Source of the DNA: Rhodobacterales bacterium 56_14_T64 | GTDB taxonomy: Bacteria; Pseudomonadota; Alphaproteobacteria; Rhodobacterales; Rhodobacteraceae | DNA length: 46,968 nt | Reading direction: 5' to 3' | Assembly (NCBI GenBank): GCA_002162795.1 | Contig: MAAY01000050.1 | Span: 13,943-60,910 of the forward strand | In this document: positions 1-12,037 of the stretch, piece by piece | Layout: every line of letters begins with the position of its first letter | Numbering within the stretch: position 1 is the stretch's first letter | Position numbers and translations under genes: made by a program | Notes under the pieces: model-generated | The model's database searches: none | Told to the model about the DNA's origin: nothing | What the model saw: only the letters and a program-made list of their open reading frames with translations

Positions 1-554
1 AAACCCGCCGCATACCCCGGCTCAAGCCCCGCAAGATTGGCCCCAACCACGCATATCACCCAGTTCAGGCTCCACACCAAAAAGGAGATTACCAGGAACG
101 CCAATGCCCCTGATCTGAGACCAGAAAAGAACTGCGGCCCCACCTTCAAGCCAAGCGCATACATGAAGAACAACAGGAACACGCTCGATAGAATTGAGGG
201 GATCGAATAGGTTAGCCCAAAGGCGGATTCAGCCACCATCGACATGGCGACGGCGGCGATCAGGACACCGGCGGTGGATCCAAGCGAGACACCCGCAAGG
301 CTGAGCCGACCCAGAGGATAGCCAATCGCCATTGCCAGTAGCAAAAACACGATGGGTTGATCACCCAGCAGCACAAAAAAACCATGCGAGCCTGTCTCGG
401 CAATGGGTTCGAAAAAGCTGAACACATTGCCAATCGCCCCTACAGGTGCGGTGTCTGCCTCGGTGGATTGTGCCAGTGCAATACCAGGGAAGAGTGAAAC
501 CAACAGCAATGCTGCAAGTCGTTGGAAAATCGAAGGGACTAATAATCGTGACAT
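1..554 (-). CDS. AspT/YidE-type amino-acid antiporter, N-terminal part (runs off window)
   Basis: Only the first 184 residues are present; the gene continues beyond base 1. Translation from the ATG at 554 gives a hydrophobic, signal-like N-terminus (MSRLLVPSIFQRL...GIALAQ), a loop, then several membrane segments including AMAIGYPLGRLSLAGVSLGS and a following hydrophobic helix ending LGLKVGPQFF. That layout fits the aspartate-alanine exchanger (AspT) and YidE/YbjL duplication family of inner-membrane carriers. The start has a GGAG ribosome site six bases upstream. It lies directly downstream of a glutamate decarboxylase on the same strand. A glutamate/GABA exchange role is therefore a reasonable inference, but the substrate cannot be read from this fragment. 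A hairpin at 606-638 lies between the two genes and may reduce read-through. Confidence 0.75.
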   Translation of the reverse strand, partial: MSRLLVPSIFQRLAALLLVSLFPGIALAQSTEADTAPVGAIGNVFSFFEPIAETGSHGFFVLLGDQPIVFLLLAMAIGYPLGRLSLAGVSLGSTAGVLIAAVAMSMVAESAFGLTYSIPSILSSVFLLFFMYALGLKVGPQFFSGLRSGALAFLVISFLVWSLNWVICVVGANLAGLEPGYAAG

Positions 555-601
555 GAAAATCTCCGGACAATGGTCGATGGCTCACCAGCCTGATACGGCC
601 T

Positions 602-638
602 AAAAATGCAGCGGAGGCCGACGAATTGGTCGGCCTCC
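602..638 (-). terminator. Hairpin with T-run after gadB
   Basis: A perfect 10-bp stem (GGAGGCCGAC at 613-622 with GTCGGCCTCC at 629-638, six-base loop) starts ten bases after the gadB stop codon. On the minus strand five Ts follow after a six-base gap. It looks like a weak intrinsic terminator or attenuator between gadB and the antiporter gene. Confidence 0.6.
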
Positions 639-647
639 AAACTTCAG

Positions 648-2048
648 TCAGTGGTGGTAACAACTGCCTTCTTCAGCACTTAGCGGCACAGCGATTGGGT
701 GCTCAGCGAAATACTCCATGCAGCGCTTGATATCCTCCACCAGCAAAGACCCCAGATCGCGGCTGACCCCGTGACGGACCAATATGCGCTGTATCACCAG
801 ATCTTCACGGTCGGCGGGCATCGTATAGGCCGGCACCTGCCAGCCCCGCATCCGCAGCCGGTCCGCCAGATCATAAAGACTGTACCCATTGGTCACTGCA
901 TCGTCTTTCAGGGTCCAGCAGAGTGCCGGGATGCCCTCGTTCATGTCGCCATCATAGAGAACCTTGAACGGGCCCAGCTTGTCGATCTCTCGGGCAATGA
1001 ACTGGGCCGTGTCGTAACAAGCCGTGTGGATCTTGCGATAGCCTTCGTGGCCTAACCGCAGGAAGTTGTAGTATTGCGCCACGATCTGGCCGCCGGGCCG
1101 CGAGAAGTTCAGCGCAAAGGTGGGCATATTGCCACCCAGATAGTTGACATTGAACACCAGATCCTCGGGCAGATCCTCTTTGTGACGCCACACCACCCAA
1201 CCGACACCCAATGGGGCTAGGCCAAATTTATGCCCCGAGGCATTGATGGATTTCACCCGTGGCAGTCGGAAGTCCCACTCGATATCAGGCGCACAAAACG
1301 GCGCCAAAAAGGCCCCCGAGGCGCCATCCACGTGCATCGGAATATCCAAGCCAGTTTCGGCCTGTAACCTGTCCAGCGCGTCGCTGACGTCTTTCACCGG
1401 CTCATACTGGCAGGTGAAGGTGACACCAAGGGTCGGCACCACGCCGATGGTGTTCTCATCCACCCGCTTCAACACCTCTGCGGGTGTCATCAGCAGGCGG
1501 TCGCCTTCTAGCGGGATCTCGCGGATTTCCACGTCGAAATAGCGGGCAAACTTGTGCCAGCAGATTTGCACCGGGCCAGTGACGATGTTTGGCCTATCGG
1601 TCGGTTTCCCCTGCGCCCGCATCTTGTCGCGCCAGCGCCATTTCAACGCCAAGCCGCCCAGCATTGCCGCCTCGGATGAACCGGTGGTTGAGCAGCCGAT
1701 GGTGTGTTTGGCCTCCGGAGAGTTCCACAGGTCGGCCAACATGTTAACACAGCGCGCTTCGATCTCGGCGGTCTGCGGATACTCATCCTTGTCGATCATG
1801 TTCTTGTCGATGCATTCGTCCATCAACTTATGCACTTCGGGCTCTTCCCAGGTCTGGCAAAACGTCGCCAGGTTTTGGCGGGCGTTGCCATCCAACATCA
1901 ATTCGTCGTGCACAATTCCGTAGGCATGCCGAGGATCCAGCTCTTGGTCAGGGAACTTGAACTTGGGTGCTGTTCTGGTCAGATCGTCTGAGCCATAAAG
2001 CTCATCAATTGATTCAGCTTTCGTTGTATGACTTTTGTTCAATGCCAT
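648..2048 (-). CDS. gadB: Glutamate decarboxylase (PLP-dependent)
   Basis: Cytoplasmic PLP enzyme that decarboxylates L-glutamate to GABA and consumes a proton, the core reaction of glutamate-dependent acid resistance. The chosen ATG at 2048 has a GGGAGA ribosome site and gives exactly 466 residues, the length of E. coli GadA/GadB; an in-frame extension to 2120 is unlikely. Diagnostic blocks match the E. coli enzyme closely: [15 protein letters not shown] (53-67), [13 protein letters not shown] (158-170), [13 protein letters not shown] (239-251) and INASGHKFG with the PLP lysine at K274. The protein ends CYHH, so the penultimate histidine (H465), which in E. coli caps the active site at neutral pH, is retained. 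An AspT-type antiporter follows on the same strand, suggesting an exchange couple. No regulator gene of the E. coli gad type is seen nearby. Confidence 0.95.
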
Positions 2049-2346
2049 TGTAATGGTCTCCCAAAATATCTTTCTCAAAAAGGGGTCAAAATTCGCCCCA
2101 AACCAGTTTGCCAGCGTCAAACCGGCACAGCGTATACCTCTACCAGTACCGGTTGATCTGCAACCTGTGCCACGACCATTTGAAAATCTGTGATTTTTTT
2201 ACGTGTGATACTTCAGTCATTTGGTGAACGCATCGGCGCAAGTGATCCAGTCCGACAATCCGCCGAAATCCACATACGCATCGGTCTGATGAACCGCTTC
2301 TCGGTCCTGGGAACGGTCGAGATCATTTGCGAGGCATGAACGCGTG

Positions 2347-3045
2347 TCACTGCCGCCTGGGAATGGGGAAATCAAAGCTGCGGCCCCTAAATGGTTCATT
2401 TTTAAACCTGAAATGCCACCACTCTCTAGGATAGTTTCTAAACCCAGCGCGGTCCATTGTTGCAACCAAGAATCGACGATTTTGCGCAGCACGTTCGGAA
2501 ACCAGCTTCGAGCTCGACTGGCTTTTCAGATCGAAAAAGTCGAATTTAGTGCCCATTTCCAATAGCGTTAATTTATCCGAGGTTTTACGCGCGATTGTCA
2601 GGTCTACCGTTCCACCCGCAGAATGCCCGGACCGGGAAGCAATATAGCCTTTTGGAATAAGTTGATGTGACGTCAGGTTCGGAAAATAGGTCTCATCAGA
2701 AAAATCATGTGCGGTTACGTATTCTACCATTTCACGTACCGCACGTGCAGGACGGTAACAGTCAAGAACCACCAGCGTTAATCTCTTTTTTGCTAACTCT
2801 CTTTGCAAAGAGGATAAAGCTCTGGCTGCGTGCTCCACCAGTATACAGTCCGGAGAGTCGTACCCGGCAAGGGGTTTGCCGACAAAATTATTACCTGTCG
2901 CATACCGAATATCCTCAACAATAGATGCATCAATATCTTGCAGATATACAAACCCAGCGGGTAGATCGGCGGCATCGGATTGATGCGCCACGACGTTGAG
3001 AAAAATTAAACAGACGATCCCACAAGCCCGCGACCATATAGTCAC
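2347..3045 (-). CDS. Secreted VanX-type D-alanyl-D-alanine dipeptidase
   Basis: Peptidase family M15D zinc enzyme, 232 residues, which cleaves free D-Ala-D-Ala. An N-terminal signal peptide (to about residue 26, ...HQSDAA) predicts a periplasmic location. The VanX active-site set is complete: R98 in DCYRPAR, zinc ligands H141 and D148 in SGHSAGGTVDLT, catalytic base E208 and zinc ligand H211 in REWWHF. The spacings (7 between H and D, 3 between E and H) equal those of VanX. The start is GTG and overlaps the stop of the upstream caspase-like gene as GTGA, so the two are probably translationally coupled. There is no vanA or vanH partner, so glycopeptide resistance is unlikely; D-Ala-D-Ala salvage or peptidoglycan-peptide degradation fits better. 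Confidence 0.88.
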   Translation of the reverse strand: MTIWSRACGIVCLIFLNVVAHQSDAADLPAGFVYLQDIDASIVEDIRYATGNNFVGKPLAGYDSPDCILVEHAARALSSLQRELAKKRLTLVVLDCYRPARAVREMVEYVTAHDFSDETYFPNLTSHQLIPKGYIASRSGHSAGGTVDLTIARKTSDKLTLLEMGTKFDFFDLKSQSSSKLVSERAAQNRRFLVATMDRAGFRNYPREWWHFRFKNEPFRGRSFDFPIPRRQ

Positions 3046-4499
3046 TGAAGCCGCAATTCGCTTATTGCAGTGTCACGATACCTCGTTCCTCTATGCACGC
3101 CAGTCAGGGTCAATGTTATCCAATTCACGTCGCCCAAATATGGGATGTTTAACACCTGAAATCGGCCGCTATCGACAACTTGAATATCTCCCTCGAAACC
3201 AGTTGAAGTCCGCACGTTGAATGATCTCACCCGGCCATTTTTCAAGTAAGTACTTTTACTTTTATTGTAGCCGTTAGCGATCAGAATTTCATTTATGGTG
3301 GTTGGTCGCTCGAACGAAAAACGCAGAACTTCACCTAGCCCGTCGCCGCTATCACCTTCTACCCAGGCAGTGTTCATATTACCGTCGGCCAAATTGTCGC
3401 CGCTGTATGTATTTCCAGATTGCATACCAAGGACCGATGAAACGCAGAGATCACTCTCGATGTTGCCAAATCGCCGTGTATAGCACTCCCGCATGCGGAT
3501 ATCGGGCATCGGTAAATGTCGCGCGGCCTGCTTTACAGGTTCTTCCAGCCTGGAAAGTGCGTCGATAGCCAAAACGACATAAAAATTATTCGGTACGTCT
3601 TGATAGTCGTTCAGGAACGCTCTCCATGCTGCGCTGCTGTCAAGCCGTTCGGCCAGAGCGTATTTGCTGGCTATAGCGTCTTCAGTAGGCACAAAAGCTG
3701 TTGAACTGGATTTTTGCGCAGGTTGGCCCTGATCTGAATGGAAATAGAAATCCCCGGTTATTGAACTGGTTTCCCAAGGAACCTGCTTTTCGCCGGTGAC
3801 GGCCAGCACCTCACTTCTGGCTGTTTTGAAAATAGATTCGATGGTGCGCCCTCCGCCAGAGGAAATCGCCGCTGTAAGCGCTTTGGTATAAGGCGAATTC
3901 TGCCCCACCCCGTCAAGCGCAACAGAACCGGGAGCCGTCGCATAGGCAATAAAGGTCCCTTTAGGTGCGTCAACCGAAGCCAACCCCCTTGAAGTAGAGC
4001 GCGAAGACCCGACGAACGGATTGTTGCGACACGCATCCAATATGATGATGTTGATATCCGCGTTTGAAGAGTTCATTACCTTAAGAAAATTGTTTACATT
4101 GATCGCCTCAAGATCAATCTCATCCTCATCAAGAATCTGCGCATTCACGGGAACCAGATAATTCTCCCCATGCAGCTGAACCCCATGCCCGGCATAATAG
4201 AACAACCCCGCATCAACATTGTCCTCCCGCAGACGCCGCCCAAACTTCAGCAGCTCCTTTTTCATCGTCCCCTGATCTGCATTCAGCAGCTTGGTCACGG
4301 TAAACCCGGCCTCGCGCAGGGTGCTGGTCATTGATATCGCGTCATTTTCCGGGTTGGCCAATGAAGATGTATGCGTGTATTTTGAGTTGCCTATAACCAA
4401 GGCAACGCGGTCCCCAGCCAAGACGCTGCTGTTCCAAAAGGTGAGGGTCAGCAGGGCAACGATGGCTGTTCCAATAGCGTGCATTACAACTTGGGTCAT
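3042..4499 (-). CDS. Secreted caspase-family (C14) protease with C-terminal discoidin-like domain
   Basis: A 485-residue protein with a signal peptide (about 1-28, ending VLAGD). The caspase fold spans about 30-255: strand motif RVALVIGNSKY, the His of the catalytic dyad in YYAGHG (H105) and the Cys in LDACRNNPF (C157), so it should be active. The C-terminal part (about 350-485) has the pattern of a galactose-binding/discoidin-like beta-sandwich of the NADase-type glycan-binding kind (SGDNLADGNMNTAWVEG; INEILIANGY; FNVRTS). Metacaspase-like enzymes of this type usually cut after basic residues, but the target is unknown. It is the first gene of a two-gene unit with the VanX-type dipeptidase, sharing a GTGA overlap. 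Codon use and base composition look more AT-rich than the surrounding core genes, which suggests acquisition. A second, broken caspase gene lies about 0.7 kb upstream. Confidence 0.85.
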   Translation of the reverse strand: MTQVVMHAIGTAIVALLTLTFWNSSVLAGDRVALVIGNSKYTHTSSLANPENDAISMTSTLREAGFTVTKLLNADQGTMKKELLKFGRRLREDNVDAGLFYYAGHGVQLHGENYLVPVNAQILDEDEIDLEAINVNNFLKVMNSSNADINIIILDACRNNPFVGSSRSTSRGLASVDAPKGTFIAYATAPGSVALDGVGQNSPYTKALTAAISSGGGRTIESIFKTARSEVLAVTGEKQVPWETSSITGDFYFHSDQGQPAQKSSSTAFVPTEDAIASKYALAERLDSSAAWRAFLNDYQDVPNNFYVVLAIDALSRLEEPVKQAARHLPMPDIRMRECYTRRFGNIESDLCVSSVLGMQSGNTYSGDNLADGNMNTAWVEGDSGDGLGEVLRFSFERPTTINEILIANGYNKSKSTYLKNGRVRSFNVRTSTGFEGDIQVVDSGRFQVLNIPYLGDVNWITLTLTGVHRGTRYRDTAISELRLQ

Positions 4500-4924
4500 T
4501 GCGCTAAACTCGCCTATTTTCTGGGGTTAAGATTGCCAGACTGCCGCCATTTGACCAAGCTTTTTCTCATATCCCTCCAGTCCTATGAAAAGATGAGACT
4601 GGGTTATCGCTCCAATTCACCTCAATCATGTTCATAGTGCGAGCCGTCAATCCTGACTTTCGCCAATGTCAGTCGAATAGGGGAGAGTCGCGGTCCATGC
4701 GAACCCCAGAAAGGGCTGCCTGCTTGCATACCAAGTCGCATTGCGAATGAAGACCAGCCATCTTCTATGTGTCCCTGATTACCGGTCAATCTGTTGACAA
4801 AATGTCAATATTCACGTTGATCCAAAGTGCAAAAAGGGGAGATTTGAAAGGTGGGTCGTAAAGTGGGCAGCAATCGCCGCTCAGCCGTTTAGTCGTTCAC
4901 AATAATGGATTTATTTAGGATAGT
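4500..4924. other. Non-coding stretch between caspase-like gene and tRNA-Leu
   Basis: About 425 bases without a convincing gene on either strand. It must contain the promoter of the caspase/VanX unit. The only structured element I see is the 15-base palindrome at 4794-4808. No copy of the tRNA 3' end was noticed here. Confidence 0.5.
4794..4808. promoter_or_regulatory. Palindrome TTGACA-AAA-TGTCAA, possible operator
   Basis: A perfect inverted repeat with six-base arms and a three-base centre, lying about 295 bases upstream of the caspase-like gene and 117 bases below the tRNA 3' end. The left arm also matches a -35 hexamer. It could be a repressor or activator site, or chance; no regulator family is assigned. 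Confidence 0.3.
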
Positions 4925-5010
4925 TGGTGCGGTCGAGAAGACTCGAACTTCCACGGGTGTTACCCCACAGCGACCTCAACGCTGCGCGTCTACCATTCCG
5001 CCACGACCGC
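4925..5010 (-). tRNA. tRNA-Leu (anticodon GAG)
   Basis: Read on the minus strand: acceptor arms GCGGTCG and CGACCGC, discriminator A with an encoded CCA (4925-4927), anticodon stem CAGCG/CGCTG around the loop TTGAGGT giving anticodon GAG, a long class II variable arm typical of leucine tRNA, and a T-arm with TTCGAGT. Total length is 86 with CCA. The 3' end points towards the VanX/caspase pair, the side on which integrating elements usually sit. Confidence 0.96.
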
Positions 5011-5233
5011 ACTGTCAGGCTTGGTAGGGCGGCGTATAGACGAAGCGCGCGGCGGTGTGAAGCCGAAAATCGCAGACCTAGACAGATTGTCGTACTTCAC
5101 TAGGAGAGCCCGTTGAAATGACCACGTCTTGTCCAGAAATGCTGGCGTAACCTATTGGGACAGATAGGAAACCCATCTGCCCCCTTGATATCTGTGGCTA
5201 CTCAAGCGCGCCATCTGGCGCCCCAGAAAATGC

Positions 5234-6824
5234 TCATTTGGTTGCAGACGCTGTCGTGCGGGCCAGGAATAAGTCACCTGACATCTGATCATAATAGGCT
5301 GGAAACTGGTCATGATTAACCGTGGACGCCAGATTTTGCACATCGCGGCGCACCTGCTTGGCCAATTGGTGCAGGGTCATGTTCGGGTCCTGCAGTCGTG
5401 GCAGCAGTGCCCGTGTAAATACTGAATTGGGATCAGCATCACCGTCCGACAGGCGATCCAAGGCTGTCTGCCCTGCCCAGCAGAATAGAGAATGAACGCC
5501 CCCTCTGGTGGCGACATACGAACCAATCCTCGCTTACCGCCAATCGACCGCTTGCCGTCTGATGGGAACGGATTATTCCGGCAGGCATCAAGGATCATCA
5601 CCGTTGTACGCGCGCCTCGCTTTTGGAACGTATCCAAAATCCGGTCTGCCGCAATGCTTTCGCCAGTCAGAAAACTCTCGTCCCCTTAATTGATTACTGG
5701 AACATCCGAGGGCAGCAGAAAGTTGCGGCCTTCGACTTCGACCCCGTGGCCCGCGAAATAAAACAATACTTCGTCGCCAGGGTCGATTTGATTGGCCATG
5801 GTAGAAACCGCACCATTGATATCCCGGCGGTCAGGGTCATAGAGCGTGCGCACCTCGAACCCCTGTCCCGACAATACACTGCTTATCGACTGCGCGTCAT
5901 TGCGGGCTTTTATCAGGTTTTCAAGGCTTTGGTAGCCATCGGCGCCAATCACCAACGCCCATCTTCGGTTTGTTGGAGCGGCCATGGGCTGGGGCTGCTG
6001 GGGAACTGCGACCTGGGTCACAACCGCACCGGTGTCTGGCAAGTCAGCAACAAGAGCGCCCTGCGGAACAAACGGCATCTGGACAGCCTGCTGCACAACT
6101 TGGCCCTGCGGTACATACTGTTGCTGCGCGCCATAGGCTTGCACATTCGGCTGCACAGCACCGTAAGAGGGTTGCTGAACGGGTTGACCGTATTGCTGTT
6201 GGGCGCCGTAGGCATTGACATTAGGATTGGCAAAGGCGGCTTGCGGCTGCCCATTTTGCTGTTGCCCATTAAAGGCGCCAGGGTTTGTGTTCACCATCAT
6301 TGTCGGCTGCTGAGAATATTGCTGCGGTTGGTTCTGTTGCGGGAAATTGGGCTGCGGCACCCTGCGTTCCGTCAGATATATATTCAACAGCCCCCTTGGC
6401 CCGCCGGGATGCGCCATTGATTGCTGCGTTGCCAGATAACCGCTGGACATCGCATGTTGATATGAACTGATAAGGAGGTCTTGCCCATAGGGGCTAAGCT
6501 GGCCGGACACCGGATAACCAAGATACGCCTGATATTGCGAGACCGCCACCTTGGACTTGCGACCCAACTGACCATCCACAGAGCCCTCGTCGAACCCGAA
6601 ATAATTGAGCGAGGCCTGGATCTGTTTGCCTTCTTGCGTCGATGGCAGCCTGGAACCTTGGCTCCCCCCGGGTTGCTTTCGTTTCCCCCTGAGAAAGCGC
6701 TCCGCCAATAAGTCCACCGATAAGAGCCCCAGCGGCAAAATCGCCAACGTCAGCCATCACTCGTTCAACTGGCACTAGGCAACGAGCAAGACAAGACGGC
6801 AGCTGTTAATGACTTCAATTGCAT
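5234..6824 (-). pseudogene. Broken caspase-family gene with peptidoglycan-binding domain
   Basis: Assembled across frames, the reading gives a secreted protein of roughly 520 residues. It has a signal-like start (ATG at 6824 after a GGAGG site), a peptidoglycan-binding-1 type segment (LNYFGFDEGSVDGQLGRKSK), a Q/N/P-rich linker with YGAQQQY repeats, then a caspase fold with WALVIGADGYQ, FYFAGHG and LDACRNNPF. It is damaged at four places: a frameshift in the leader (about 6780-6800), another near 6670-6700 at a G-rich run, an in-frame TAA at 5686-5688 between the two catalytic motifs, and a one-base shift near 5465-5490 (the tail continues as TALDRLSDGDADPN). Several lesions of different kinds argue for gene decay, although the homopolymer-linked ones could be sequencing errors. 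The longest intact piece (5686-6747) keeps the His but loses the catalytic Cys. Confidence 0.8.
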
Positions 6825-6952
6825 TTCAACCTCCAAAATTACTCATACTTAAAAGCAGCGCCCCTTTTATCAGGGGGAATCATTCTGAAAAGGCTGGAAT
6901 CCACCACCTAAAGAGCCGTATTGAGAGGCTATACTGAGGAAATGGGCTGAAT

Positions 6953-7627
6953 ATGGTTGAATGGATCACCAGTGACGGGCTGACCGACTATGCCGCTGCG
7001 GTCGACTTTATGGAGAGTCGCGCCGCCATGATAGCGTCCGGCCAAGCTGATGAATGCATCTGGTTGGTTGAGCATCCGCCACTTTACACTGCAGGCACTT
7101 CGGCCAAGCCTGCTGACCTGACCGATCCGGATCGTTTTCCGGTCCACGACAGCAAGCGCGGTGGCCAGTACACCTATCACGGCCCTGGTCAGCGGGTGGT
7201 CTATGTGATGCTCGACGTTGGCAAACGTGGCCATGATGTGCGCCGTTTTGTGCAACAGCTAGAGCAATGGGTGATCCTGGCCTTGGAGCAGTTCAACGTC
7301 ACTGGCCACATCCGCGAAGGACGGGTTGGAGTCTGGGTCGAGCGTGACGACAAGCCACTGAACATTTCTGGATCCAAGGCCGAGGACAAGATTGCTGCCA
7401 TCGGTATCCGTTTGCGAAAATGGGTCAGCTTTCACGGCATCTCGATCAATCTCGACCCGGACCTTAGCCATTTCGACGGCATTGTACCCTGCGGCATCAC
7501 CGAGCACGGAGTGACCAGTCTGGTAGATCTGGGCCTGCCGCTGTGCATGGAAGATGTCGACCTCGCGCTGCGGCGCAGCTTTGAACGGGTCTTTGAAACG
7601 GCAGGCGATACTTGCCTGCCTGACTAA
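6953..7627 (+). CDS. lipB: Lipoyl(octanoyl) transferase LipB
   Basis: Transfers the octanoyl group from octanoyl-ACP to a conserved lysine of lipoyl-dependent enzymes, the first step of protein lipoylation, in the cytoplasm. The 224-residue length is normal. Family motifs are present: [12 protein letters not shown] (69-80, H76), [13 protein letters not shown] (140-152) with catalytic K146, and IVPCGI with the catalytic C180. The ATG at 6953 is preceded by a GAGGAA stretch. It is transcribed away from the broken caspase gene and converges on the next gene, with only five bases between the stop codons. The partner lipA is not in this window. Confidence 0.95.
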
Positions 7628-7632
7628 CAGCA

Positions 7633-9354
7633 TTACCTGTCGGCCAATTCCTCAAGCGCCGCAAACACCAATTCGGGGCGAGTGTATAACAACATCGCCC
7701 CGCCACCCCGGCAAAGCCGGACCTGAACGTTATTGCGCCCGGCCATTGTTCGCTGTAAACGATCAACCGAGGTCACCTGATCATCATCGCCATGCAAATA
7801 GATGACCGGTGCCGAATGGCCGTCAATATGGCGCCGCCAATCGCTCACGATCCAATGAAAATCAGCCATCAACCCGGCGCCATTTTGCTGCAGGGACAAA
7901 TTGTGACTGGCCTGCAGCAGGGCAGCCATTTGTAAGCGGTCAATTTGTGCGCTGGTATTGCTGTCCGGCTGCCGCTTCTGCCTCATCAGCACCATTGGCC
8001 CATTCCGGCGAATACCGCGCGCCCATAGCTTCACCACCAGCGGCAACACGCGGGGGCAATAGGTCGCAGCAATTGCCATGGACCAGTGATGCCAGCGCAG
8101 GGCCGATAATTGCCCCAACTTTTGCACCGGCCCCATGCCCGAGACAACCACCGCCCCTGCGATCCTGTCCCGCAGTCTCCGCGCCGCGATATGTGCAAAA
8201 GCCGCCCCGCCTCGGTGTCCCAACAAAATGGGGCGCTGCAGGTTTTCCCGCTTAATCATGGTTTCCAGCTGATCGATAAATACATCCATACTGCGTTCAT
8301 TGGACGGCACCGGACCTGACTGCCCGTATCCACTGCGCAACGGCGCGTAGACGCGAAACCCGCGTTTTCTGAATTGCAACTGTAACCGCTGCACCCCGGC
8401 AATTCCGTCTAACAACCCATGCAGAAAGATAACCGGCTGCCCGGTTTCCGCACCCAGTTTGAAGAACTGCAAGCATTGACCCTCGGGCAATTCTACACGG
8501 CCGCCTGGTGGCGTGACCTCACCACTTGCAATCCTGTCATCCGAGGCAACCTCGGCGATCAGAAAACAAAACAACCGCAGCATTTCGGCAAGCCCCGGCG
8601 CCCCGGACTTGGCCTGGATGACCCGCAATTGTGCATTCAGACTAGAAATACCGCCGCGGGTCGGGTTTGCCAAATCGCTCAGACTGTCGCCTTCGAGAAG
8701 TCCGCCCAATAACAACATTTCCTGTCGGTGCAGTGCAAATGTCGCCGACAACATGTCTTGGGCGCGGCTCGACCAGTGAAAGTCCAGGGCTTCAATCATC
8801 AACCCGTAGGAGGCCTGCAGACCCTGGCCGCATTGAACGGTTCGACACATCAATTTGCGAGACGGGTCAGGCGTGGCCAAGATCTCGGGGTCCAGCCAGC
8901 TGCCATGCTGCTGCCTTAACTGTGTCAGGCGTTGCTCTATCCGGCCTTGCGCGGCATCATTCAGACCCAGAGCCGTTTGCACTTCCCCCTCGGATCCCTG
9001 CAAACAGGCCTGGGCAGCCCGACTGGACCTGGAAACTCTACCAGAGGCCGTCAACAAGATCCAAAAATTTTCATTATCTTCATAAAACTCTGCAGGGGCT
9101 GGACGACCTGACCTGATCCATTGCTGCTCCAAAATCTCGCTGGCGTGCGCAAAATGCAATTGCAGATCTGGACTGATTCGGTTTCCGAGTAGGCCTGCAT
9201 CCGGTGCAGATTCGGAAAACCCGCTAGAGCCGTCCACTGGTGACCGTAAAAACCGATCATATAATTCTGCCCGAATCACTGTTTCATAGATCGCGGCAAT
9301 CGTCTGATCCTGAGACAGGGCATCTACATGCCGTGGGCTTATCACATCGTTCAT
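7633..9354 (-). CDS. LuxR-type HTH protein fused to a degenerate alpha/beta-hydrolase domain
   Basis: A 573-residue soluble protein. Residues about 50-110 are PAS-like in character. Residues about 205-267 read as a LuxR/sigma-4 type helix-turn-helix (LLGGLLEGDSLSDLANPTRG followed by an L..I.AK.G...AEMLRL pattern). Residues about 305-573 are an alpha/beta hydrolase: oxyanion HGLLDG, strand-turn GHRGG, acid loop LHGDDDQV and terminal GGGAMLLYTRPELV. The nucleophile position of GxSxG is Arg (R381) and the usual catalytic His is Ala (A553), so hydrolysis is unlikely. A ligand-sensing transcription regulator is my inference; no ligand can be named. The start is taken at ATG 9354, with a TTG just upstream as an alternative. 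It stands alone and converges with lipB. Confidence 0.65.
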   Translation of the reverse strand: MNDVISPRHVDALSQDQTIAAIYETVIRAELYDRFLRSPVDGSSGFSESAPDAGLLGNRISPDLQLHFAHASEILEQQWIRSGRPAPAEFYEDNENFWILLTASGRVSRSSRAAQACLQGSEGEVQTALGLNDAAQGRIEQRLTQLRQQHGSWLDPEILATPDPSRKLMCRTVQCGQGLQASYGLMIEALDFHWSSRAQDMLSATFALHRQEMLLLGGLLEGDSLSDLANPTRGGISSLNAQLRVIQAKSGAPGLAEMLRLFCFLIAEVASDDRIASGEVTPPGGRVELPEGQCLQFFKLGAETGQPVIFLHGLLDGIAGVQRLQLQFRKRGFRVYAPLRSGYGQSGPVPSNERSMDVFIDQLETMIKRENLQRPILLGHRGGAAFAHIAARRLRDRIAGAVVVSGMGPVQKLGQLSALRWHHWSMAIAATYCPRVLPLVVKLWARGIRRNGPMVLMRQKRQPDSNTSAQIDRLQMAALLQASHNLSLQQNGAGLMADFHWIVSDWRRHIDGHSAPVIYLHGDDDQVTSVDRLQRTMAGRNNVQVRLCRGGGAMLLYTRPELVFAALEELADR

Positions 9355-9624
9355 CAATTCTATTCCAATCAGCCCAACTGCTGGACCGCGCGATAAACTC
9401 TCTTGTCTACAACGCTAGCTTACTTACATCTCTCTTGGCAAAGCCCAGCAAAGCAGCATTAGAAATCTAACGTTGCCTACTGACAGTTAATAATTCACTT
9501 ATTAAAGAGATATTTTTGCGCAACATCACACAACGTAAAGGTGTTTTGCAAACGGGAATTTGAACACCCTCCAGAATTCAAGCGCAAATCACACTAGAAT
9601 CAGATGTAATTATCCAGTAAAAAC

Positions 9625-10047
9625 CTAAAGATCTAATATCGAGGCACGAATTTTATCGGCGTTCTGACTAATTACAACCTGATCGCCCATTTTCCCTGGC
9701 GCACCAAGGCGATCGCCCTCATGTCGGGCAAGTACATGAAAGTGCAGGTGGAAAACTTCCTGGCCACCAGCCGTCTCATTAAACTGCTGCAGCGTAATTC
9801 CATCGGCCTCAAAAGCCACCATCAGCGCGCGCGACATCAGCTGAACTGTTTTCATCACCGCTGCCATCTGCTCGGCGGTTGCGTCCAGCATATTTCGGCA
9901 GGGCGTTTTGGGAACGACCAGTACATGCCCGTCGGACCGTGGCATGATATCCATAAACGCAATGGTGTCAGCATCCTCGTATACCCGAGTTGATGGAATC
10001 TCATCGCGCAGAATTTTGGCAAAAATGTTATCGGAATCATAAGTCAT
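9625..10047 (-). CDS. HIT family nucleotide-binding protein
   Basis: A 140-residue cytoplasmic protein of the histidine-triad superfamily (HINT-like), which hydrolyses or transfers nucleotide monophosphates from phosphoramidates and similar adenylated compounds. The catalytic triad HLHFHV is at residues 100-105, and the N-terminal block ending DGHVLVVPK (39-47) is the usual dimer/nucleotide region. The length is typical. The physiological substrate is not known for most members. The gene stands alone; the 270 bases downstream are AT-rich with no evident gene, and ctaD is transcribed divergently. Confidence 0.9.
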   Translation of the reverse strand: MTYDSDNIFAKILRDEIPSTRVYEDADTIAFMDIMPRSDGHVLVVPKTPCRNMLDATAEQMAAVMKTVQLMSRALMVAFEADGITLQQFNETAGGQEVFHLHFHVLARHEGDRLGAPGKMGDQVVISQNADKIRASILDL

Positions 10048-10246
10048 GGTATTTCCTTACTGTCATCGTGTCCGAGTTCGGCACTTTCAAAATTTACTTT
10101 TTGCACAGTCAAATCTGCAGCCAGCCATCAATCGCACCACCCACCGCAAGCACTCTGTCCACACCGTCATGCTCTTTAAGATGGTTCCCCTTAACGCTTA
10201 GCGGCACTTTTTCAAGCCACCCATTGGGGGGGCGCGTCAATTTATC

Positions 10247-10260
10247 TTGATGCAGATCAA
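10247..10260. promoter_or_regulatory. FNR/FnrL-type binding site upstream of ctaD
   Basis: The sequence TTGATGCAGATCAA is a perfect match to the FNR consensus TTGAT-N4-ATCAA. It is centred about ten bases upstream of the end of a promoter-like -35 box (TTGAAG at 10270-10275) and 104 bases before the ctaD start. This implies oxygen-dependent control of the terminal oxidase. Confidence 0.7.
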
Positions 10261-10269
10261 ACTCCGCCA

Positions 10270-10298
10270 TTGAAGGCACAGCCTTGCCACTCTAAAAA
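10270..10298 (+). promoter_or_regulatory. Probable sigma-70 promoter of ctaD
   Basis: TTGAAG (10270-10275) and TAAAAA (10293-10298) are separated by 17 bases. Transcription would start near 10305, leaving a leader of about 60 bases, and the FNR-type box would be centred near -51. Confidence 0.45.
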
Positions 10299-10363
10299 CC
10301 CTATGAATCAAGGTGCCCGGAGTCCGCTCTCGGGGCCTTTCTAAATATAACAGGAGGCACCAA

Positions 10364-12037
10364 ATGGCAGACGCAGCCATTCATGGTCACGATCACGCGG
10401 ACGAGCGGGGGTTTTTTACCCGCTGGTTCATGAGTACGAACCATAAAGATATCGGCATTCTCTATCTGATCGTTTCGGCGTTTGTCGGTCTGATCTCTGT
10501 CACGTTCACCGTTTACATGCGGCTAGAGCTGATGGATCCGGGTGTTCAATACATGTGTGAAGAAGGTGCGCGTTTGTTCGCAGACGCCTCGGCCGCATGC
10601 ACCCCGAACGGCCACCTGTGGAACGTGTTGATCACCGCACACGGCATCCTGATGATGTTCTTTGTGGTGATTCCGGCGTTGTTCGGCGGTTTTGGCAACT
10701 ACTTCATGCCGCTGCAAATCGGCGCGCCTGACATGGCCTTCCCGCGTTTGAACAACCTTAGCTTCTGGCTTTATGTGGCTGGTACTTCGCTTGCGGTTGC
10801 GTCGGTATTGTCGCCAGGCGGTAATGGTCAATTGGGGTCCGGTGTAGGCTGGGTTCTGTATCCACCGCTGTCCGTGAAAGAAGGCGGTCTGTCGATGGAT
10901 CTGGCGATTTTTGCCGTCCACGTCTCGGGTGCCTCGTCGATCCTGGGTGCGATCAACATGATCACCACTTTCCTGAACATGCGTGCCCCCGGCATGACCC
11001 TGTTCAAGGTGCCGCTGTTTTCATGGTCGATCTTTGTCACCGCCTGGCTGATCCTGCTGAGCCTGCCTGTTCTGGCTGGCGCTATCACCATGCTGCTGAT
11101 GGATCGCAACTTTGGCTTTGCCTTCTTTGACGCCGCCGGTGGCGGTGATCCGATCCTGTACCAGCACATCCTTTGGTTCTTTGGTCACCCCGAAGTCTAC
11201 ATCGTGATCTTGCCGGGCTTTGGTATCATCTCTCATGTGATCGCGACCTTCTCGCGCAAGCCGGTGTTTGGCTACCTGCCAATGGTCTGGGCGATCATCG
11301 CGATTGGTGTTCTGGGCTTCGTCGTTTGGGCGCACCATATGTACACTGTCGGCTTGACGCTGAACCAACAGGCCTACTTCATGCTGGCCACCATGGTCAT
11401 CGCGGTGCCAACTGGCGTGAAAGTGTTCTCCTGGATCGCCACCATGTGGGGCGGCTCGATCGAGTTCAAAGCACCTATGATGTTCGCCTTTGGCTTCCTT
11501 TTCCTGTTCACCGTTGGTGGTGTAACCGGAGTGGTGCTGTCGCAGGCTGCCGTGGATCGCTTTTATCACGACACCTACTACGTTGTGGCGCACTTCCACT
11601 ATGTGATGAGCTTGGGCGCGGTCTTTGCCATCTTTGCCGGAGTTTACTTCTACTTCGGCAAGATGACCGGTCGTCAGTACTCCGAAAAGTTCGCACATCT
11701 GCACTTCTGGATGTTCTTCATCGGCGCCAACGTGACCTTCTTCCCACAGCACTTCCTGGGTCGTCAGGGCATGCCGCGTCGTTACATCGACTATCCCGAG
11801 GCCTTTGCCTACTGGAACTATGTCTCGTCGATGGGTGCGTTTCTCTCGTTTGCATCATTCCTGCTGTTCTTTGGTATCGTATTCCACGCTCTGTTGCGTG
11901 GCGCCCGTATCACCCAGAACAACTACTGGAACGAGTACGCCGACACGCTGGAGTGGACCCTGCCGTCACCTCCTCCAGAGCACACCTTTGAAATCCTGCC
12001 CAAGCAGGAAGACTGGGACAAAGCTCCGTCGCACTAA
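10364..12037 (+). CDS. ctaD: Cytochrome c oxidase subunit I (aa3-type)
   Basis: Catalytic heme-copper subunit of the aa3 oxidase: an inner-membrane protein of 557 residues with about twelve membrane helices that reduces oxygen to water and pumps protons. Visible hallmarks are [13 protein letters not shown] with the heme a ligand H93, [17 protein letters not shown] (the CuB histidine and the cross-linked Tyr), the K-channel region, and [14 protein letters not shown] with the paired heme ligands. ATG 10364 follows a strong AGGAGG site; an upstream in-frame start at 10313 is unlikely. The other cta genes are not adjacent, as is common in Rhodobacterales. The upstream region carries a consensus FNR box and a promoter-like pair. 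A hairpin terminator follows. Confidence 0.97.

Follow-up and report, generated by a model that had tools for sequence, protein, structure and literature searches.

What places the gene of a secreted caspase-like protease in overlap with that of a D-Ala-D-Ala dipeptidase? The question is raised by a stretch of 46,968 nucleotides from Rhodobacterales bacterium 56_14_T64 (contig MAAY01000050.1, positions 13,943 to 60,910; hereafter the window), which carries a gene for an exported caspase-fold protease directly upstream of a gene for an exported VanX-type dipeptidase. VanX, DdpX and PcgL are D-Ala-D-Ala dipeptidases of the M15D family. The operons and domains of prokaryotic caspases were analyzed in a 2012 survey, which describes wall-binding domains, combinations with Amidase_2 and surface-related operons in the part available to us (PMC3501461). 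The accessible main text makes no mention of VanX, dipeptidases, M15, SH3 or discoidin domains (PMC3501461). Combinations of a metacaspase with a wall amidase domain had thus been reported earlier, judging from that part (PMC3501461), and we found no description of the coupled two-gene form that recurs here. The original prediction knew of no such described pair, and no paper joining both genes was among the matches listed in a literature search that left out most subscription journals. Here, we describe the two genes, their recurrence and neighborhoods, and weigh what the pair may do.

Two exported enzymes encoded by overlapping genes

The upstream product was predicted to be a signal-peptide C14 protease with an intact His-Cys dyad and a discoidin-like C-terminal domain, and both parts of this description hold. 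Pfam assigns Peptidase_C14 with 148 bits and NADase_transloc (PF25302) with 108 bits, while the C-terminus reaches 134 bits against the NCBIfam model NADase_discoid (NF047619; cut-off 38). In all 16 aligned paired caspases H105, C157, D53 and D155 are invariant, and every one of the 16 has a hydrophobic N-terminal segment immediately before the domain. The paracaspase MALT1 is the best match both by sequence and by Foldseek (3v4o; template modeling (TM) score normalized to the target, 0.80), and the dyad aligns with that of MALT1. By analogy with MALT1 and the metacaspases we take D53 and D155 to be the acids of the S1 pocket, and cleavage after Arg or Lys, of the metacaspase/paracaspase type, is predicted. 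The protein thus resembles prokaryotic metacaspases and orthocaspases in its C14 fold, its His-Cys dyad and its N-terminal hydrophobic segment, but differs from the metacaspases of the 2012 survey, as far as that source was available, in having a separate, translationally coupled D,D-dipeptidase as partner (PMC3501461).

The AlphaFold model of the full protease (17-row alignment) has a mean pLDDT of 82.8 and a pTM of 0.50, so that the relative placement of its domains is uncertain. The NADase-type discoidin (ND) domain modeled alone (20 rows) reached a pLDDT of 94.6 and a pTM of 0.89. Its Foldseek matches are APC10/Doc1 (top), CBM32 modules and other F5/8C-like galactose-binding-like folds, mostly at query TM scores of 0.55-0.7. 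The expected fold was therefore recovered, and the model is compatible with glycan binding; the fold is no proof of it, because the top match, APC10/Doc1, is by its title no carbohydrate-binding module. Like other NADase-type discoidin domains this one scores well above the cut-off and adopts the galactose-binding-like fold, but it is fused here to a caspase and not to an NAD glycohydrolase.

The downstream product matches Peptidase_M15 with 123 bits (Pfam), and a PDB search at E ≤ 0.01 gave VanX itself as the sole match (1r44, E 1.3e-40, over residues 30-228). R98, H141, D148, E208 and H211 are invariant in 19 of 19 aligned VanX sequences; from VanX we take these to be the zinc ligands, the catalytic base E208 and the arginine R98. 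A hydrophobic segment precedes the domain in all 14 rows with at least 12 residues there, the other five of the 19 being too short to judge. The original description of a signal-peptide VanX with complete zinc and base residues is thus upheld. The catalytic residues and the match to 1r44 are shared with VanX, DdpX and PcgL, whereas the window protein differs from them in falling below the equivalog-type cut-offs (166 against 320 for the VanX equivalog, 96 against 176 for PRK10178), in its signal peptide and in its place beside gadB and the caspase gene (vanH and vanA were not searched for elsewhere). With both cut-offs missed, a role as a Van-type resistance gene is unsupported. In five loci where the partner is a caspase with an SH3 domain (L261, L263, L265, L268, L269) the VanX reading frames, as read, span 410-486 aa, compared with 232 aa for the window VanX; the additional part was assigned to no Pfam family in L261 and L265.

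The predicted GTGA overlap of the two genes was found as described (Table 1). The pair also is AT-richer than its surroundings, as claimed, with a G+C content of 0.495 against a window mean of 0.570 (standard deviation 0.027, lowest value 0.485, overlapping windows of 2155 nt). Its position between the gad pair and a tRNA was likewise correct: gadB (Pyridoxal_deC, 648-2120) adjoins vanX, an Asp-Al_Ex antiporter gene lies beyond gadB, and tRNA-Leu(gag) is found on the caspase side at 4925-5010. The direct neighbors of vanX are hence gadB and the caspase gene.

Table 1. Coordinates of the caspase-vanX pair and its parts in the window (aa, amino acids).
Feature	Position	Strand	Remarks
Exported caspase-fold protease gene, 485 aa, ATG start	3042..4499	-	Signal peptide, C14, linker, NADase-type discoidin (ND)
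Predicted caspase signal peptide, ~residues 1-28	4416..4499	-	Hydrophobic segment; cleavage site by eye
Peptidase_C14 domain, residues 31-252	3744..4409	-	Dyad codons H105 4185-4187, C157 4029-4031; predicted S1 acids D53, D155
NADase-type discoidin domain, residues 351-483	3051..3449	-	Galactose-binding-like beta-sandwich
Stop/start overlap GTGA, 4 nt, caspase/vanX	3042..3045	-	
Exported VanX-type D-Ala-D-Ala dipeptidase gene (predicted), 232 aa, GTG start	2347..3045	-	
Peptidase_M15 domain, residues 30-227	2365..2958	-	Zinc ligands H141, D148, H211; E208 base; R98
Block shared with two congeneric genomes, 90% nucleotide identity, unrelated site	2345..4618	.	Includes 115-119 nt upstream of the caspase gene

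Recurrence of the pair across lineages

Conservation of the pair outside this strain, named beforehand as a decisive test, was found in samples from the genus, the family, a Hyphomicrobiales-type order and GTDB as a whole. VanX relatives at E ≤ 1e-30 are present in 8 of 394 genomes of the window's family, and in four of the seven other than the window's own a caspase gene lies directly upstream of vanX, each time with a possible 4-nt overlap (L347-L350). The order of genome G721 has VanX in 73 of 297 genomes; identity of some of these VanX with VanX from named Mesorhizobium, Prosthecomicrobium and Methyloligella loci is our reason for calling the order Hyphomicrobiales-type. Among its 74 loci a C14 gene adjoins vanX in 18 (17 co-directional upstream, one convergent), and two more have another ND-bearing partner. 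Counted as frames, 19 C14 frames are adjacent to vanX and three are not, one of the latter being a further piece of a caspase that is itself adjacent (L293); the loci are related, and the counts are not independent. The best 80 of at least 588 relatives in the GTDB-wide scan include 13 loci with an adjacent C14 gene (6 co-directional, 7 convergent) and one ND fragment at a contig edge. The last two samples are not independent of each other either, since six locus pairs carry identical VanX (L185/L258, L219/L254, L186/L270, L194/L279, L195/L264, L173/L257).

The pair is found in two orientations: co-directional, in which the protease gene comes first, and convergent, the latter in Roseibium/Labrenzia-type loci and in three metagenome-assembled genomes labeled Rhizobiaceae, Hyphomicrobiales or Mesorhizobium. 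The 29 co-directional loci comprise 11 with a 4-nt overlap, 12 with a possible ATG, GTG or TTG start no more than 10 nt after the stop, and six with a longer gap. Our own gene calling placed vanX in 142 of the 157 loci and missed 15.

Viral contigs yielded no VanX by single-protein search and one relative with a profile of the 19-row VanX alignment. Plasmid records matched VanX (468) and the caspase (280), all below 60% identity. On these searches, each made for one of the genes, phage or plasmid cargo was rejected as an explanation. In one genome (L303, 7614-9793) a caspase-ND gene overlaps vanX by 4 nt, and near relatives in the VanX tree that have a downstream gene of the same size (547 aa; AidB-like in the scanned L304) are without the caspase.

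Exchange of anchors and proteases and other VanX neighborhoods

The C-terminus of the protease partner is either an ND domain or a bacterial SH3 domain. Pfam places SH3 above the cut-off in all four scanned partners of the Hyphomicrobiales-type loci (L258, L260, L261, L277) and in two of three scanned from the window's family (L349, L350; L347 is below the cut-off and L348 was unscanned); the remaining SH3 assignments were made by eye from C-termini like the scanned ones. The protease itself is exchanged in L297, where a gene for a Trypsin_2 plus ND protein takes the place of the caspase and overlaps vanX by 4 nt. Its sequence contains GxSG, and six positions ahead of the Ser of this motif stands an Asp, presumably at the position of basic specificity in trypsin. 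A similar label for the partner in L290 was discarded as a self-match of a seed; Pfam finds an ND domain, a weak F5_F8_type_C match and no family on the N-terminus.

A second kind of neighborhood has genes for alpha-2-macroglobulin and PbpC upstream of vanX (27 of the 80 GTDB-wide and 4 of the 74 Hyphomicrobiales-type loci), as judged by similarity to the proteins of L150, the only locus in which Pfam was used for their identity. The link matters because this pair (YfhM/PBP1C) has been proposed for wall defense and repair, according to the part of the source available to us (PMC4498604). A related VanX is the next gene after this operon in Mesorhizobium-type loci, and three of the 27, which also count among the 13 C14 loci, carry a convergent caspase-ND gene. 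In these three (L150, L161, L191) the row alpha-2-macroglobulin, PbpC, VanX faces the caspase-ND gene, so that protease inhibitor, wall synthase, dipeptidase and protease are encoded side by side. The window differs in that neither gene was tagged beside its vanX (scan of 1-12000) and in that vanX is accompanied there by a protease gene instead of one for an inhibitor of proteases.

Ten neighbor genes of vanX were hand-picked for Pfam, eight of them from loci with neither a protease nor the alpha-2-macroglobulin/PbpC tag. Peptidoglycan genes account for three of the eight: Amidase_2 with PG_binding_1 (L272, 4-nt overlap), Amidase_3 (L220) and Ddl (L325). Another scanned neighbor encodes a beta-lactamase-family protein (L181), a solute-binding protein gene lies downstream of vanX in a Mesorhizobium alpha-2-macroglobulin/PbpC locus, and in L160 the gene immediately upstream of vanX encodes, by Pfam, an extracytoplasmic function (ECF) sigma factor. 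L167, L174, L190 and L256 have a gene of similar size at the corresponding position. Peptidoglycan genes therefore recur beside VanX, though not universally.

Transfer of the block and its evolutionary history

Within the genus a caspase ortholog with 93-100% protein identity occurs in three of eight genomes (G000, the window genome, G162 and G296), with vanX directly behind it in each. The 2.27-kb block consists of these two genes alone and lies at two unrelated sites in the three genomes. When window positions 1-12000 were compared with 20-kb stretches of G162 and G296, homology was confined to 2345-4614/4618. In G162 the block has a major facilitator superfamily (MFS) gene on one side and, on the other, a sulfatase-family gene with diacylglycerol kinase behind it (Pfam), and by similarity the neighbors in G296 are the same. 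At synonymous sites the pair has diverged less between the window and G162/G296 (0.29-0.33) than have four chromosomal genes (0.46-1.32; these were the four, out of ten tried, with a counterpart in the stretch), which suggests that the pair was transferred after the genomes split. For the caspase dN/dS is close to 0.12, and for vanX close to 0.25.

No convincing terminal inverted repeats of the block were found. Repeats with dozens of dispersed copies in G162 and G296 adjoin it (L053, 10950-11137; L054, 9212-9303 and 11750-11841), and in G296 a pair of 92-nt copies with 82% identity brackets the block as direct repeats. At G296:C112:109509-109530, about 25 kb from tRNA-Leu(gag), the 3′ end of this tRNA is repeated exactly over 22 nt, which suggests that an island integrated there.

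A quick tree of 157 VanX needs 11 changes of protease adjacency, and the approximately unbiased (AU) test does not reject, at the 5% level, that the 37 paired VanX share one origin (p 0.095). The paired caspases form no single clade in a quick tree from which identical rows and rows shorter than 150 aa were dropped; the window caspase groups with other vanX-paired caspases (SH-aLRT 96). In this tree the rows L001, L008 and L025 are the window-genus pairs, and the row L260_7109 is the convergent copy. Separate histories of the window VanX and caspase were hinted at by the quick tree and then discarded: a tree holding the VanX of the window genus with those of five loci from that caspase group (L143, L144, L180, L317 and L321) has a likelihood 44 units above the free quick tree, with L260, whose convergent caspase falls in the same caspase clade, left out of this test, and with only the ND part of the partner on the contig in L180. 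Because the constrained tree fits better, the window pair appears to have moved as one unit.

Possible function and alternative explanations

We interpret the pair as a two-gene envelope module, in which an anchored, exported caspase-fold protease and an exported zinc D,D-dipeptidase would serve wall turnover or a response to wall damage, a reading to which we give slightly less than an even chance. It draws on what was computed: the domain assignments and active-site residues, the hydrophobic segments that signal export, the close coupling of the genes, their recurrence in several lineages and two orientations, anchor swaps and some peptidoglycan-gene contexts. Export and pairing are well supported, while P1 specificity, anchor ligand, substrates, trigger, benefit and purpose are what we infer. 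The upstream gene would supply a protease cleaving after Arg or Lys and tethered to wall or glycan by its C-terminus, and the overlapping gene a dipeptidase for the same compartment. Upon envelope damage or remodeling the anchored protease might clear or process envelope proteins at the wall, and VanX would hydrolyze the D-Ala-D-Ala set free from the stem peptides of the wall, which would recycle D-Ala and keep the dipeptide from accumulating. The originally predicted two-gene periplasmic system acting on cell-wall peptides thus stands as to location and context, with the substrate presumed. Of the stress, predation or lysis response proposed with it, stress is hinted at in Roseibium-type loci, where a gene for an ECF sigma factor precedes vanX (one scanned), and none of the findings indicates lysis or predation.

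Several points weigh against this reading. VanX is known to work on free D-Ala-D-Ala rather than on intact wall peptide; a periplasmic source of the dipeptide must therefore be assumed, and this source is the weak point of the mechanism. Most of the VanX loci examined also lack the partner. The order draw of 292 genomes had 15 VanX matches (two of them close, from the own genome and a congener, and 13 weak), and at E ≤ 1e-10 VanX was matched in 120 of 385 genomes of the class draw and 66 of 398 of the phylum draw, at most 30 loci being examined from each; in the resulting 70 loci, within the limit of 1.5-kb flanks, C14 was found in two, both from the window genus. Neither a protease nor alpha-2-macroglobulin/PbpC is seen in 42 of the best 80 GTDB-wide and 50 of the 74 Hyphomicrobiales-type loci, and three of the seven other VanX genomes of the family have no caspase, one of them on a 5.2-kb contig. 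No third gene family is common across lineages among 16 pair loci and the window. Four of the eight scanned neighbors of unpaired vanX are ordinary metabolic or transport genes (acyl-CoA dehydrogenase/AidB type, thiamine pyrophosphate (TPP) enzyme, AMP-binding enzyme, sugar-type MFS transporter). Promoter patterns at the pair were no commoner than in shuffles, and the same holds for terminator patterns.

The export signals and the patchy, transferable distribution would also suit nutrient scavenging, in which lysed neighbors supply the proteins and wall peptides that the enzymes break down, with VanX freeing D-Ala as food. Seven unpaired VanX loci, moreover, have a gene of 479-480 aa that shares 4 nt with the end of vanX, and the one scanned encodes a sugar-type MFS transporter. 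We nevertheless regard scavenging as unlikely, since an anchored protease is ill suited to free digestion, the alpha-2-macroglobulin/PbpC, amidase and Ddl neighbors point to the cell's own wall, and no uptake gene lies directly beside the window pair, which is bordered by gadB and the tRNA.

We know of no role of D-Ala-D-Ala hydrolysis in defense against proteins, and this counts against a wall defense in which the protease destroys incoming basic proteins, such as bacteriocins or enzymes of predators and phages, with VanX and PbpC aiding repair. The PADLOC defense model for caspases gave a partial, low match (37 bits over positions 5-192 of 453); a full-length match to the anti-phage caspase model was not reached, and no other sign of defense was found. 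Wall defense thus seems quite improbable, even though the pair is mobile and the mixed loci contain alpha-2-macroglobulin and PbpC, proposed for defense and repair in the accessible part of the source (PMC4498604).

Programmed lysis or cell death, executed by the caspase while VanX weakens the wall, has still less in its favor. VanX is not known to cut cross-linked wall, so that no lysis by VanX would follow; no holin- or toxin-like partner was recognized, and both genes are under ordinary purifying selection. For this explanation speaks that bacterial metacaspases have been discussed as death proteases, four of them combined with an amidase domain in the part of the survey available (PMC3501461). 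That the genes have no functional link and are chance neighbors or joint hitchhikers is highly improbable: most VanX loci have no protease and a single origin of the pairing was not rejected, but the adjacent C14 frames far outnumber the others, two orientations and different caspase lineages are involved, the genes overlap, and anchors and proteases have been swapped.

Other caspase genes near the locus and in the genus

Beside tRNA-Leu the window holds a second caspase gene (PG_binding_1 plus C14, 5377-6747, minus strand), which is broken by an in-frame stop, its reading frame being lost further on. Homologues with open frames occupy the same tRNA-lipB interval in four of the eight genus genomes (G038, G293, G294, G295), and none was found in this interval of G162, G296 and G292. 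The three pair-bearing genomes are thus all without an intact copy there. In other species of the genus (L055, L056, L057) caspase-ND genes are clustered with those for a ferric-reductase-like protein, a large cytochrome c/DUF4384 protein, YARHG or weak PG_binding matches and a second caspase. Genes for a ferric reductase and a cytochrome c/DUF4384 protein also lie beside the caspase-vanX pair of L144 (7540-12034).

Implications for bacterial caspases

Homologues of caspases in bacteria are usually framed in terms of cell death. The coupled dipeptidase partner offers a specific hypothesis instead, namely envelope and peptidoglycan turnover, with anchor and protease modules exchanged beside one conserved wall enzyme. 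In its widest form, which we put forward tentatively and hold to be possible but doubtful, secreted caspases would in part be cell-wall enzymes, and Alphaproteobacteria, probably more than once, would have coupled a wall-anchored, Arg/Lys-specific caspase (once a trypsin fold) to a periplasmic D,D-dipeptidase. The pair may then represent an unrecognized system of proteolysis and peptidoglycan salvage, linked to repair by alpha-2-macroglobulin and PbpC.

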